Shown: positions 49,000-52,297 of the stretch, piece after piece
Layout of the letters: each line of letters starts with the position of its first letter
Position numbering within the stretch: the stretch's first letter is position 1
Made by a program: the position numbers and the translations under genes
Assembly: GCA_028284705.1 (NCBI GenBank)
Contig: JANQRE010000007.1
Span: 62,001 to 126,000, forward strand
DNA: 64,000 bases
Direction of reading: 5' to 3'
Source of the DNA: Paracoccaceae bacterium
Lineage (GTDB): Bacteria; Pseudomonadota; Alphaproteobacteria; Rhodobacterales; Rhodobacteraceae
The notes under the pieces: generated by a model
The model's database searches: none
Told to the model about the DNA's origin: nothing
The model's input: only the letters and a program-made list of their open reading frames with translations

Positions 49000-49605
49000 T
49001 TATACGCGGTTGTGCATCATCAGCGTCGGCATGTTCATCGCTTCCGACAGGATCGGGCGCGAGCGCGTCACTGATTTCTTGCGTGGTTTGGTCGAGAGCG
49101 ACTTGGTCATGAAGAGCTTGCCGCCGGAATAGACCGAATTGCGGCGCTTCTTCTCAGAGAGGAGCTTCATGCCGAACGCGCTTGAGAACCGCGTGCGATA
49201 GCGGCCCGAGCCCGGCACCATGTCGCTGGAGAAATAGCGCGGATGATCGGTCAGAACGGACAGGAAATACCGCTTGCTTGGTGTCTCGGTCACATAAGCA
49301 TTCTCATTGGCGACGCCCGCATCGACAGGACCGGCGGCATCAGCGATTTCGATCGCTGTCTTGGCGGCCCCGATTGGATTGAACGGTGCGCGTACCACCA
49401 GCATCGAGCGTTTGGCATCGAGATGGGAGGCATAGGTCTCAGCGGCATTGCTGTCGACCCGCGCCGCGCGCATCGCGTCGGCAGCCCCGTTTCCAGCAGC
49501 AATCACATCGATATTGGCGTCCGGGAAACCCAACTCCATCAGTTGCGCCGCCACCTGGCCCGCGGTATCGGCCCCGTCATAGAGCCTTGAAACGACTGTA
49601 GTCAT
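49000..49605 (-). CDS. hypothetical protein at the end of the puc operon
   Basis: Protein of 201 aa. The N-terminal part (MTTVVSRLYDGADTAGQVAAQLMELGFPDANIDVI) resembles the general-stress YflT/17M type domain that begins many small soluble proteins. The C-terminal 70 residues are basic with many Ser, Lys and Arg. ATG 49605 has AAGGAG seven bases upstream. It lies 84 bases after pucC on the same strand and may be cotranscribed with pucBAC. Not a known photosynthesis gene; function unknown. Confidence 0.65.
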   Translation of the reverse strand: MTTVVSRLYDGADTAGQVAAQLMELGFPDANIDVIAAGNGAADAMRAARVDSNAAETYASHLDAKRSMLVVRAPFNPIGAAKTAIEIADAAGPVDAGVANENAYVTETPSKRYFLSVLTDHPRYFSSDMVPGSGRYRTRFSSAFGMKLLSEKKRRNSVYSGGKLFMTKSLSTKPRKKSVTRSRPILSEAMNMPTLMMHNRV

Positions 49606-49689
49606 GTCTTCTCCTTCACATATCAGGTGCCCCGAAAGAGGCACGTGCAGAAGGCAACCGGTTCGAGTCCCGGCAAAAGTCGGTTACCG

Positions 49690-51099
49690 TCATTGATGAA
49701 CATAGACCTCTTTGTCGTGTGATCTATGCTTTTTTCGTCTCAACAGGTGCATCGCGAAGAGTGCGGCGATGAGCAACACGATCTCCAGCGAGAAAACAGG
49801 GGTGTAAGGCGTCTCCGGGCGGAAGTGTTCCGCGCCGGGCAGGCTGACGATGATGTCGCGGATCACACCACCAAGAGCGACTGCGATCCCGGCAGCTGTG
49901 GCTTGCACCGCGCCCCACGCGCCAAGCGCCAGACCGATCTGCTCACGTGGCGCTGCGCGCATCGTGGCCGTCAGCGTTCCATGACCAAAAAGACCTGCGC
50001 CAAACCCAGCGAGAAGGGTGCCGGCAACAAATAGGGCTGGCATTTGGGTCGGAGCAGAGAGCACGATGGCGATGAAGGCGGGCACGCCAACGGCGGCCCC
50101 GAGCCAGGCCATGGTGAGCGGGTCCATGCCTGCGGAAAGCTTGCGCGAGGCATAGGCGAAGCCAACAAGGCTGCCCGCCGCCAGCACTGCCGTCAGACGC
50201 GTTGTGGTGGCCACGGACAGGGACAGGACCTGACCGCCATAGGGCTCCAGCAACACATCCGCCATGGCGAACCCGGCTGTGCCGAGGCCGATCACAACCA
50301 GAAGCAACAGGATGGTGTTGCCACGGGCGAGCTGGCCCCAAGCCTCTCGAAATTCCGGTTTAGGAGCCGCGCGACGAGCGCGTTCGCGATCCCGCGGTTC
50401 CTGTTTCCACAAGGCGGCAAGGTTCAGCGCGATTGTGACGACAGCGGCACCCTGCACGACCCGGATCAGGCGACCGGGCGTATAATTCTCCAAAAGCATG
50501 CCGAAGATGATGGCGCTCGCGATCATGCCCACAAGCATCATCACATACATAAGCCCGACGACATTGGGTTGGTCCTCCTCCTTCACCAGATCTGTGGCGA
50601 GCGCGAGACCGACGGTCTGGACCATATGAACACCGGCGCCGACCAGAAGGAAGGCGAGCGCGGCGCTCGAATAGCCGATCCAGCGCGGTGCATCGACGGC
50701 CTCTCCATAGCCAGAGAGCACCAGAAGCGCGAAGGGCATGATGGCGAAGCCACCAAACTGCAACATCGTGCCTTTCCAGATATATGGCACGCGCCGCCAG
50801 CCCAGAGCCGATCTATGGATATCAGATTTGAACCCGATCAGCGCGCGAAACGGCGCGAAGATCAGTGGTAGGGAGATCATTACAGCGACAATTGAGGCAG
50901 GTACGGACAACTCGACAATCATCACGCGGTTTAATGTGCCCACCAGCAGCACAAGGGCCATTCCGACCGTCACTTGAAACAAGGAGAGCCTCAGAAGGCG
51001 CGAAAGGGGGAGGTCATCGGTCGCCACATCGGCAAAGGGCATGTATTTCGGCCCGAGCCGTCCGATCGTCTGCAAAGCGAATTTGCGATACCCGATCAT
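49690..51099 (-). CDS. pucC: light-harvesting 2 assembly protein PucC
   Basis: Membrane protein of 469 aa with about twelve hydrophobic helices, of the PucC/LhaA/BCH2 branch of the major facilitator family. It guides assembly of the LH2 antenna, probably by delivering bacteriochlorophyll. The N-terminus MIGYRKFALQTIGRLGPKYMPFADVA and GFKSDIHRSALGWRRVPYIWKGTMLQFGG are characteristic. ATG 51099 with GGAAAG upstream fits known PucC starts better than the GTG at 51171. It lies downstream of pucA, separated by a hairpin-rich 149-base spacer. Confidence 0.93.
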   Translation of the reverse strand: MIGYRKFALQTIGRLGPKYMPFADVATDDLPLSRLLRLSLFQVTVGMALVLLVGTLNRVMIVELSVPASIVAVMISLPLIFAPFRALIGFKSDIHRSALGWRRVPYIWKGTMLQFGGFAIMPFALLVLSGYGEAVDAPRWIGYSSAALAFLLVGAGVHMVQTVGLALATDLVKEEDQPNVVGLMYVMMLVGMIASAIIFGMLLENYTPGRLIRVVQGAAVVTIALNLAALWKQEPRDRERARRAAPKPEFREAWGQLARGNTILLLLVVIGLGTAGFAMADVLLEPYGGQVLSLSVATTTRLTAVLAAGSLVGFAYASRKLSAGMDPLTMAWLGAAVGVPAFIAIVLSAPTQMPALFVAGTLLAGFGAGLFGHGTLTATMRAAPREQIGLALGAWGAVQATAAGIAVALGGVIRDIIVSLPGAEHFRPETPYTPVFSLEIVLLIAALFAMHLLRRKKHRSHDKEVYVHQ

Positions 51100-51154
51100 A
51101 TGCGAGCGGTCTTTCCAGTCGTGAGGACTGCATCCCCTGAATTTGTATTGAGAG

Positions 51155-51211
51155 GTGCGCGGCTTTCGCACGCAACGCTCTCAGTTCCCGGCACCTGTGC
51201 TGATCGTTGCG
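51155..51211 (-). other. hairpins between pucA and pucC
   Basis: Two stems lie in the pucA-pucC spacer: GTGCG/CGCAC at 51155-51159 and 51167-51171, and CGCAACG/CGTTGCG at 51171-51177 and 51205-51211. In purple bacteria the puc mRNA is cut and the pucBA part is stabilised by such structures, so that the antenna peptides far outnumber PucC. The same function is likely here. Confidence 0.55.
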
Positions 51212-51248
51212 ACCACCACGGGCAATTTTGTCATGTTGCGCAGCCTGG

Positions 51249-51566
51249 CTAGACGCCGTCGTCCACAACAAGTCGGGCAGTGCGCCCGTCAGGTAGAATG
51301 ACCGTCATTCCATCATGCGCGGTAGCCGAGGCGTCCAAATACATGGTGCCCCCCTCCACATCTGCACTTGCTGGAAGGATAGTCTGTTCCGTTTCCAATG
51401 CGGCGGAGCTTGAGCCAAGCTCATTGCCGGACAGGAAATCCGACACCCAGGTCGTATTGCTGAGCACGGCGACGTGCACGGCAAACGATCCAACGGCAAC
51501 AGCGCTCAGAAAGATCGGAACACCGACCGTTGGTTTCACGACAAGCCAGATTTTCGAGTTGTTCAT
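51249..51566 (-). CDS. pucA: light-harvesting 2 alpha polypeptide, long C-terminus
   Basis: Antenna peptide of 105 aa. Residues 1-47 align without gaps with LH2 alpha chains (MNNSKIWLVVKPTVGVP, then a hydrophobic helix): H31 binds bacteriochlorophyll and SNTTW (36-40) follows. At positions 44 and 45 it has Phe-Leu, where B850-type antennas have Tyr-Trp or Tyr-Tyr. Residues 48-105 form an Ala/Thr/Asp-rich extension, about twice the usual length; long extensions are known in some Rhodovulum alpha chains. ATG 51566 has AAGGAG upstream and lies 13 bases after pucB. Confidence 0.93.
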   Translation of the reverse strand: MNNSKIWLVVKPTVGVPIFLSAVAVGSFAVHVAVLSNTTWVSDFLSGNELGSSSAALETEQTILPASADVEGGTMYLDASATAHDGMTVILPDGRTARLVVDDGV

Positions 51567-51579
51567 CTCTTAAATCTCC

Positions 51580-51735
51580 TTATCCGAGCCAAGGTGTGGA
51601 AATGGCGACGAGGATATGTGCCACGAGGGCAATCAATCCAAAGACGCGCGTGCCGTCGATGAGATAGCTATGTACCTCTTCGGCTTCACTTTGGGTCAGA
51701 CCTGTCGGCCAGACCTTTTCAGGATCACCAGACAT
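51580..51735 (-). CDS. pucB: light-harvesting 2 beta polypeptide
   Basis: Small gene of 51 codons. The product has the LH2 beta pattern: an acidic N-terminus with [19 protein letters not shown] (H22 near the B800 site; R30 can bond the B800 acetyl group) and a membrane helix with the B850 ligand H40 ([10 protein letters not shown]) ending STPWLG. Together with the adjoining pucA and pucC this leaves no doubt about identity. It is the first gene of the operon. No ideal Shine-Dalgarno is seen, although GAGGGA lies eight bases upstream. Confidence 0.95.
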
Positions 51736-51853
51736 ATGAGTCCCTCACCTTCGGTAGTGAACGCCACCTGCACCAAGACAAGAGTTGCCAGAGTCGCAAG
51801 GCGACGTGACACTCTCCACCGCACATGTGCGACAAAGAGTACCGACCTCAGTG

Positions 51854-51897
51854 TGTCACTTTTGATTTACACTATCAACTGTAAAATAAAGCGGACA
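51854..51897. promoter_or_regulatory. two PpsR/CrtJ-type sites upstream of pucB
   Basis: TGTCACTTTTGATTTACA (51854-51871) and TGTAAAATAAAGCGGACA (51880-51897) both fit the TGT-N12-ACA palindrome bound by the aerobic photosynthesis repressor PpsR/CrtJ. Their centres are 26 bp apart. They lie 119 to 162 bases upstream of pucB, in the 343-base gap between pucB and infA, where cooperative binding would repress puc under oxygen or light. Confidence 0.75.
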
Positions 51898-52078
51898 CAC
51901 GCCTCGTCGCTCAGCGAACAAGCGCTATGCCCAAAATTGTCGCATGAGAATTGAGGCTTTGAGGTCGAATCCGATGTCAAATCTGCGTTTGACCCTCGGC
52001 TTTCGCTTGAAAACAAAGCAAAACAAGCGCATGTAAGCCGCGCTTGCAGGATCGCAAGCGAGTCAAACAGGAGAAAAC

Positions 52079-52297
52079 ATGGCCAAGGAAGAACTGCTCG
52101 AATTCCCCGGTGTCGTGAAGGAACTCCTGCCCAATGCGACGTTTCGGGTCGAGCTGGAAAACGGCCATGAGATCATCGCACACACGGCAGGCAAGATGCG
52201 CAAGAATCGCATCCGTGTCCTCGCGGGCGACAAGGTTCAGGTCGAGATGACCCCCTATGATCTGACGAAAGGTCGGATCAACTACCGCTTCAAGTGA
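52079..52297 (+). CDS. infA: translation initiation factor IF-1
   Basis: Protein of 72 aa with the S1/OB-fold of IF-1 ([46 protein letters not shown] broken here only for description). It occupies the ribosomal A-site during initiation. AGGAG lies a few bases before ATG 52079. The stop overlaps the start of maf (GTGA). In related bacteria it follows the hisD/UPF0262/phosphatase genes directly; here about 3.1 kb of opposite-strand puc DNA separates them. Confidence 0.97.

Follow-up and report, generated by a model that had tools for sequence, protein, structure and literature searches.

The window (the whole stretch of DNA analysed, 64,000 nucleotides from a Paracoccaceae bacterium, a marine aerobic phototroph) carries a puc operon whose LH2 alpha chain has phenylalanine at residue 44 and leucine at residue 45, which raises the question of the wavelength at which an antenna built from it would absorb. 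We consider it about 85% probable that pucBA, the sole peripheral antenna found, forms an LH2 ring free of hydrogen-bond donors to its acetyl groups, with a red band at ~803–810 nm as in the LH4-like/B806 antennas. The original observation is right, and its prediction of a blue-shifted antenna is probable. An antenna of this type (LH4-like/B806, F44L45) is already described, and because marine aerobic phototrophs are known to carry blue-shifted antennas, the colour by itself is nothing unusual. The features on which the argument draws are collected in Table 1.

Table 1. Features of the puc operon, in positions of the window.
Feature	Position	Strand	Basis or remark
orf4, 201 aa, downstream of pucC	49000..49605	minus	N-terminal domain predicted to fold, C-terminal part basic
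pucC, PUCC-family protein, 469 aa	49690..51099	minus	PUCC profile, 509 bits
pucA, LH2 alpha chain, 105 aa, V41-F44-L45	51249..51566	minus	translation, Pfam LHC, phmmer
Alpha C-terminal tail, residues 48–105	51252..51425	minus	translation, alignment of relatives
Tail hairpin MTVILPDGRTARLVV, residues 87–101	51264..51308	minus	alignment, AlphaFold
Phe44 and Leu45 codons (B850 antennas: Tyr44, Trp/Tyr45 there)	51432..51437	minus	read from sequence
Val41 codon, third tuning site (LH3 Tyr41; PucD Val41)	51444..51446	minus	sequence and alignments
pucB, LH2 beta chain, 51 aa	51580..51735	minus	directly upstream of pucA
PpsR/CrtJ-type box TGT-N12-ACA	51854..51871	.	upstream of pucB
Second PpsR/CrtJ-type box	51880..51897	.	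26 bp from first box

The pucA interval translates on the minus strand into 105 residues with no internal stop, among them H31, W40, V41, F44 and L45, and its plus-strand frame is interrupted by stops. An LH2 alpha chain with Phe44-Leu45 had been proposed here without a strand, and the minus-strand translation bears this out. Residues 3–41 match the Pfam LHC family (E 5.7e-12; 46.1 bits, above the cut-off of 23), and in phmmer alignments with two LH2 alpha chains of solved structure (7pbw, 7ze3) the chain runs gap-free from residue 1 to 48 or 51, so that the residue numbering holds and the earlier ungapped placing of residues 44 and 45 by way of H31 and W40 stands. The His31 ligand, the shared operon with pucB and pucC and the LHC match above cut-off identify pucA as an LH2 alpha chain. 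It agrees with the LH4-like/B806 type in F44L45, in Val41 as found in PucD (no C3-acetyl donor) and in being the sole peripheral antenna; it shares F44-L45 with LH3 but has Val41 in place of the Tyr41 that donates to the alpha-bound BChl, and the Tyr44 and Trp/Tyr45 of classic B800-850 antennas are replaced by Phe44 and Leu45. The call is not due to chance, as pucB and pucC flank the gene and V41-F44-L45 is found in 108 of 119 unique long-tail alpha chains, a set that contains the window's own. Matches of residues 51–88 to TAL effector repeats in the PDB were discounted as artefacts of composition, no stretch of the region passing alone.

The genome (98.71% complete, 50 contigs) holds four LHC-family matches, namely the puc LH2 pair and a second pair that adjoins reaction-centre genes on contig C35 and was read as LH1. 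A second pucA with Tyr-Tyr, named in the original prediction as a finding that would speak against it, was looked for among these four matches and is absent, since they comprise only the puc and LH1 pairs. Phe44-Leu45 and the lack of any other pucA among the genome's matches support a blue-shifted LH2, as far as colour can be predicted from sequence; the sequence itself, the single copy, the operon, the residues and the relatives are direct observations.

The genes run in the order pucB-pucA-pucC-orf4, with all four reading frames open; the pucC start was taken as the ATG of MIGYRKF, and a GTG upstream at 51171 is a possible alternative. TGT-N12-ACA boxes in the whole 64-kb window are near chance (10 vs. 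7.82 expected). At least two such boxes stand within 400 bases upstream of pucB in 61 of 75 relatives' loci, with 48 spacings of 26, the figure for base-shuffled controls being 0.4%. Tandem PpsR-type boxes upstream of puc are described for Rhodobacter in the excerpted literature, and the puc operon of Dinoroseobacter shibae (Dshi_2897–Dshi_2900, four genes by number) was raised in a ppsR mutant (PMC10890935, in excerpt). If the operon were silent, or the complex missing from the membranes, the residues would have no spectral consequence, and the apparently decayed puc remnants of one relative (G568) illustrate such a fate; with four open frames, conserved boxes and gene order, and LH1 and reaction-centre genes present on contig C35, however, this is very improbable for the window. 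No sigma-70-like promoter was found by consensus in 49500–52200, and the idea that an RNA hairpin between pucA and pucC marks a processing site was rejected (z −0.34; 66 of 200 shuffled sequences fold equally well). The window's pucB also passes the NCBIfam LH1-beta model (66.8 bits vs. a cut-off of 61), so automatic annotation may name this LH2 pucB as pufB.

The wavelength expected of such a ring follows from published comparisons of C3-acetyl hydrogen bonds with colour, in which two bonds give ~850 nm, one gives ~825 nm (LH3, through Tyr41) and none gives ~800 nm (PucD, 803 nm; PMC9618040, in excerpt), Val replacing Tyr41 in PucD (PMC6988754, in excerpt). In the window's antenna the normal histidine ligand would be kept and the C3-acetyl groups of the 850-type bacteriochlorophylls would be left without a hydrogen-bond donor, Phe44 and Leu45 replacing both of the usual donors and Val41 offering no substitute of the kind that LH3 has. 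The missing bonds would raise site energies and lower coupling, and because of these two effects the red band would move to ~803–810 nm and merge with B800 (High-800 type); both the spectrum and its physical cause are extrapolated from what solved structures and measured spectra show in other species. The original prediction had allowed 805–830 nm. It is supported, and residue 41, which it left out of account, parts the 820 nm LH3 (Tyr41) from the ~803 nm form (Val41) and allows the range to be narrowed to ~803–810 nm.

The likeness to the B806 type, which had also been put forward, agrees with a 2025 review (PMC12654162, in excerpt) that assigns F44L45 to a group of LH4-like antennas from Roseobacter, Roseicyclus mahoneyensis and D. 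shibae and lists peripheral bands at 804–806 nm for D. shibae (804), R. litoralis, and R. mahoneyensis (806). The window shares with these systems (R. mahoneyensis, Roseobacter denitrificans/litoralis, D. shibae) both F44L45 and the presence of only one peripheral antenna, according to the excerpted review. Roseicyclus (Roseibacterium) elongatum is listed at 802 nm with an 850 shoulder. The alpha chain of R. mahoneyensis DSM 16097 (L056) has S27, V41, F44 and L45 and the same kind of tail as the window's chain, to which it is 66% identical. The chain at locus L020, which we take to be D. shibae, is V41-F44-L45. A literature search for spectra of the named relatives found no paper.

With Val41, the window's chain matches the bond-free pattern rather than LH3. 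PucD-LH2 of Rhodopseudomonas palustris (7ze3, 803 nm) shares V41 and F44 with it and has no donor at 41, 44 or 45; it reads W40-V41-A-K-F44-M45, differing in M45, in its length of 59 aa and in having no long tail, and PucD is one of several R. palustris LH2 pairs, with a gamma polypeptide (PMC9618040, in excerpt). The excerpted text of the PucD paper gives Met-44 and Phe-45, and the 7ze3 chain aligns as F44-M45. The classic B800-850 antenna of Rhodobacter sphaeroides (7pbw) shares the transmembrane part, His31 and Ser27, but has Y44-Y45 and a short tail, and none of the ten genomes with classic alpha chains gave an orf4 match. The B800-820 antenna (LH3) of Rhodoblastus acidophilus 7050 (1ijd, 53 aa) reads W40-Y41-A-A-F44-L45, which confirms the earlier statement that LH3 has Phe-Leu. 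That shared pair would suit an LH3-like antenna with a separate 820–830 nm band, as would Ser27 in the window's chain and the 826 nm absorption of an R. sphaeroides F44-L45 mutant that likewise has no Tyr41 (7pbw). However, the sole LH3 bond comes from Tyr41, where the window has Val41, and R. mahoneyensis, identical at residues 27, 41, 44 and 45, has its listed band at 806 nm, which makes an LH3-like antenna unlikely.

The donor-free reading does leave one discrepancy. The R. sphaeroides F44-L45 double mutant, without both bonds, absorbs at 826 nm at 77 K and not at 803 nm (PMC9618040, PMC6988754, both in excerpt), and its remaining Ser27 bond has been pointed out (PMC9618040, in excerpt). 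The window's chain has Ser27, and so has each of the 109 F44 chains in the census, including that of R. mahoneyensis; given the 826 nm mutant and Ser27 in an antenna listed at 806 nm, bond counting leaves the last 20 nm unexplained, and Ser27 does not account for them either. Residues 41 and 43 are candidates, residue 41 being Val in the window and in PucD and Leu in R. sphaeroides. The abstract of a 2011 study on the High-800 LH2 of Roseobacter denitrificans reportedly points to the environment of the C13-1 keto group and to a serine.

The alpha chain continues into a tail of 58 residues, which among relatives is variable in the middle and conserved near its end around V-x-V-x-L-P-D-G, Asp93-Gly94 being common to all 69 aligned chains, of which the window's is one. 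The matched solved LH2 alpha chains, at 48–71 residues, have no room for an LPDG tail. AlphaFold places helices at residues 12–36 and 39–46 of pucA (mean pLDDT 67.8, pTM 0.30), has low confidence at 57–71 and gives a weak tail hairpin with strands at 87–90 and 96–99 (block pLDDT ~60–74). Pfam returned LHC for every one of the 69 chains and, beyond that, weak matches in 1–9 of them, with no family for the tail and no PepSY domain, which its pattern had suggested; no description of a conserved tail ending in an LPDG hairpin was found in the literature searched. The tail goes with clade and not with colour, as 10 of the 11 long-tail Tyr44 chains also have the DG tail. By established LH2 topology the tail would sit on the periplasmic side, close to the acetyl groups, and so long and conserved a tail might, as might pucB, supply another donor that replaces the lost bonds and keeps absorption at ~850 nm. 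This is scarcely credible, given that R. mahoneyensis absorbs at its listed wavelength with the same kind of tail and that pucB ends in STPWLG, TTPWLG or ATPWLG in 143 of 145 F44 and 18 of 18 Y44 loci (duplicates counted), its last six residues failing to separate the two classes.

Alpha-chain matches occur in 38 of 295 sampled family genomes and 59 of 390 of the order, in 12 of 13 genomes in the genus of G581 (whose chain is that of R. mahoneyensis) and in 7 of 21 in the window's own genus, itself included; plasmid records searched with the alpha chain gave no match. The profile scan of named genomes retained the best 80 of 269 relatives, so that closer relatives are over-represented in the named set. 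An alpha chain could be read at 176 of 181 loci (132 unique); L041, L043, L061, L153 and L186 are without one, L041 having been excluded though one reading gave a classic Tyr44-Tyr45 chain, and a spurious ORF at L084 was dropped. Beside V41-F44-L45, the long-tail chains comprise five Y41-Y44-L45, four Y41-Y44-V45 and two V41-Y44-L45, with no Y41-F44; L168, whose tail is without DG, was placed among them by hand. L037 has V41-F44-L45 with a short tail, and the remaining 12 unique chains are short or alanine-rich, and in them Tyr, His or Trp comes after Tyr44. L041, L045, L181 and L182 are second LH2 alpha chains of classic genomes, with Ala/Pro/Glu-rich extensions and lengths of up to 263 aa, presumably like Puc2A of R. 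sphaeroides.

Tyr41 and Tyr44 stand together in the same kind of chain at L035, L036, L038, L092, L110, L116, L132, L137 and L168, and at L092, L110 and L116 there is a two-residue insertion before Trp. Roseicyclus marinus and Roseibacterium persicicum are among the relatives that have both tyrosines, and Tateyamaria pelophila has only Tyr44. On a pucC tree of 119 loci (quick build, SH-aLRT support, several of the Tyr44 rows partial), the best tree needs nine changes to account for the 11 long-tail Tyr44 rows, and the starred branches demand at least six; with shuffled labels the mean was 10.7, and a count this low came up in 25 of 500 cases. Across six independent pairs, residue 41 moved with residue 44 in 5.5 on average and never in the opposite direction (sign test p 0.03–0.06). 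L132 and L052 are 92% identical over codons 1–35 and 58% over 36–47, and L035 and L038 are 78% and 97% identical over the same stretches, so what has changed around codons 36–47 looks like a cassette, whether by recombination or convergence. Tyr41 with Tyr44 would give two donors that bypass residue 45, with absorption predicted at 825–850 nm. No description of a repeated Phe44/Tyr44 change, with residue 41 mostly following, was found in the literature searched. Residue 41, and not just 44 and 45, is thereby brought in as separating 820 nm from ~805 nm forms, and the natural Val41-Phe44 and Tyr41-Tyr44 pairs could serve as a test of bacterial LH2 tuning.

The fourth gene, orf4, searched for with the window's protein, was found on the same strand at 67 of 80 named loci, on the other strand at five and not at eight, one of which has just 4 bases left after pucC. 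Parsed starts of 66 same-strand copies lie within ~140 bases of the pucC stop, one further start, at 1,131, being a misread. Of the 295 family genomes, 36 gave a match to its profile. These comprise every one of the 34 with the long-tail LH2 type, to which G207 was assigned despite its short tail, and two of the 257 without a pucA match, one of them matched weakly; none of the four with classic alpha chains only is among them. Because puc-linked copies went into the profile, it may have overlooked distant copies elsewhere. In 33 of the 34 genomes orf4 occurs within 3 kb of pucA; the nearby one in G235 is the second of two adjacent copies. In a second genome set orf4 accompanied the long-tail type in 18 of 18 cases, whatever residue 44 was, and the classic types in none of ten, four of which are shared with the first set. 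G568 has only pieces of orf4, one with a stop; together with a short pucA match they make up locus L186 (G568:C3:114641–115195), which looks like a decayed puc operon.

The first 105 residues of Orf4 are predicted to fold (pLDDT mostly >90), and the basic remainder is not. Across the 52 relatives parsed, 25 of the 47 intervals between repeat cores measure 26 residues and 37 measure 22–28 (shuffled sequences: 0.2 intervals of 22–28 per set); two or three cores are present in 32 of these relatives, one clear core in the window's copy. No family scored above the Pfam or NCBIfam cut-offs, the window's copy matched no solved structure by sequence, the profile gave one chance-level match to solved structures (E 0.89), and fold matches to CutA and PII proteins were middling. 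A YflT-, PII- or CutA-like protein is at most a candidate identity. A literature search for orf4 found no paper, which is weak evidence. Orf4 may serve as a strap or assembly factor; given its link to the long-tail LH2 type and the lack of any assigned family, it is a candidate missing antenna part. It is possible, though we hold this only tentatively, that pucB, long-tail pucA, pucC and a dedicated Orf4 strap form a separate build of LH2 with a repeatedly switched colour cassette. The single repeat core of the window's copy counts somewhat against this build. The basic C-terminal part of Orf4, made up of 26-residue repeats in most relatives, would then strap the cytoplasmic face of the ring, in a role comparable to that of the R. 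palustris gamma ribbon, perhaps holding extra pigments or fixing ring size, and residues 37–46 would switch between V41-F44 (~805 nm) and Y41-Y44 (predicted 825–850 nm).

The history of the operon may differ from that of its genome. The housekeeping gene hisD is closest to the window's own genus (77–81% in eight genomes vs. 73–78% in twelve others), whereas pucA is nearer another genus (86% vs. 53–64% in its own). As the puc operon is less like its own genus than hisD is, horizontal acquisition of 49690–51735 is suggested by these identities and may have taken place; transfer of photosynthesis genes in the window's family has been described (PMC6052148, in excerpt). On the pucC tree the seven own-genus rows do not group, requiring five changes, at least four by starred branches, and this non-grouping is a property of the whole genus and not of the window alone.
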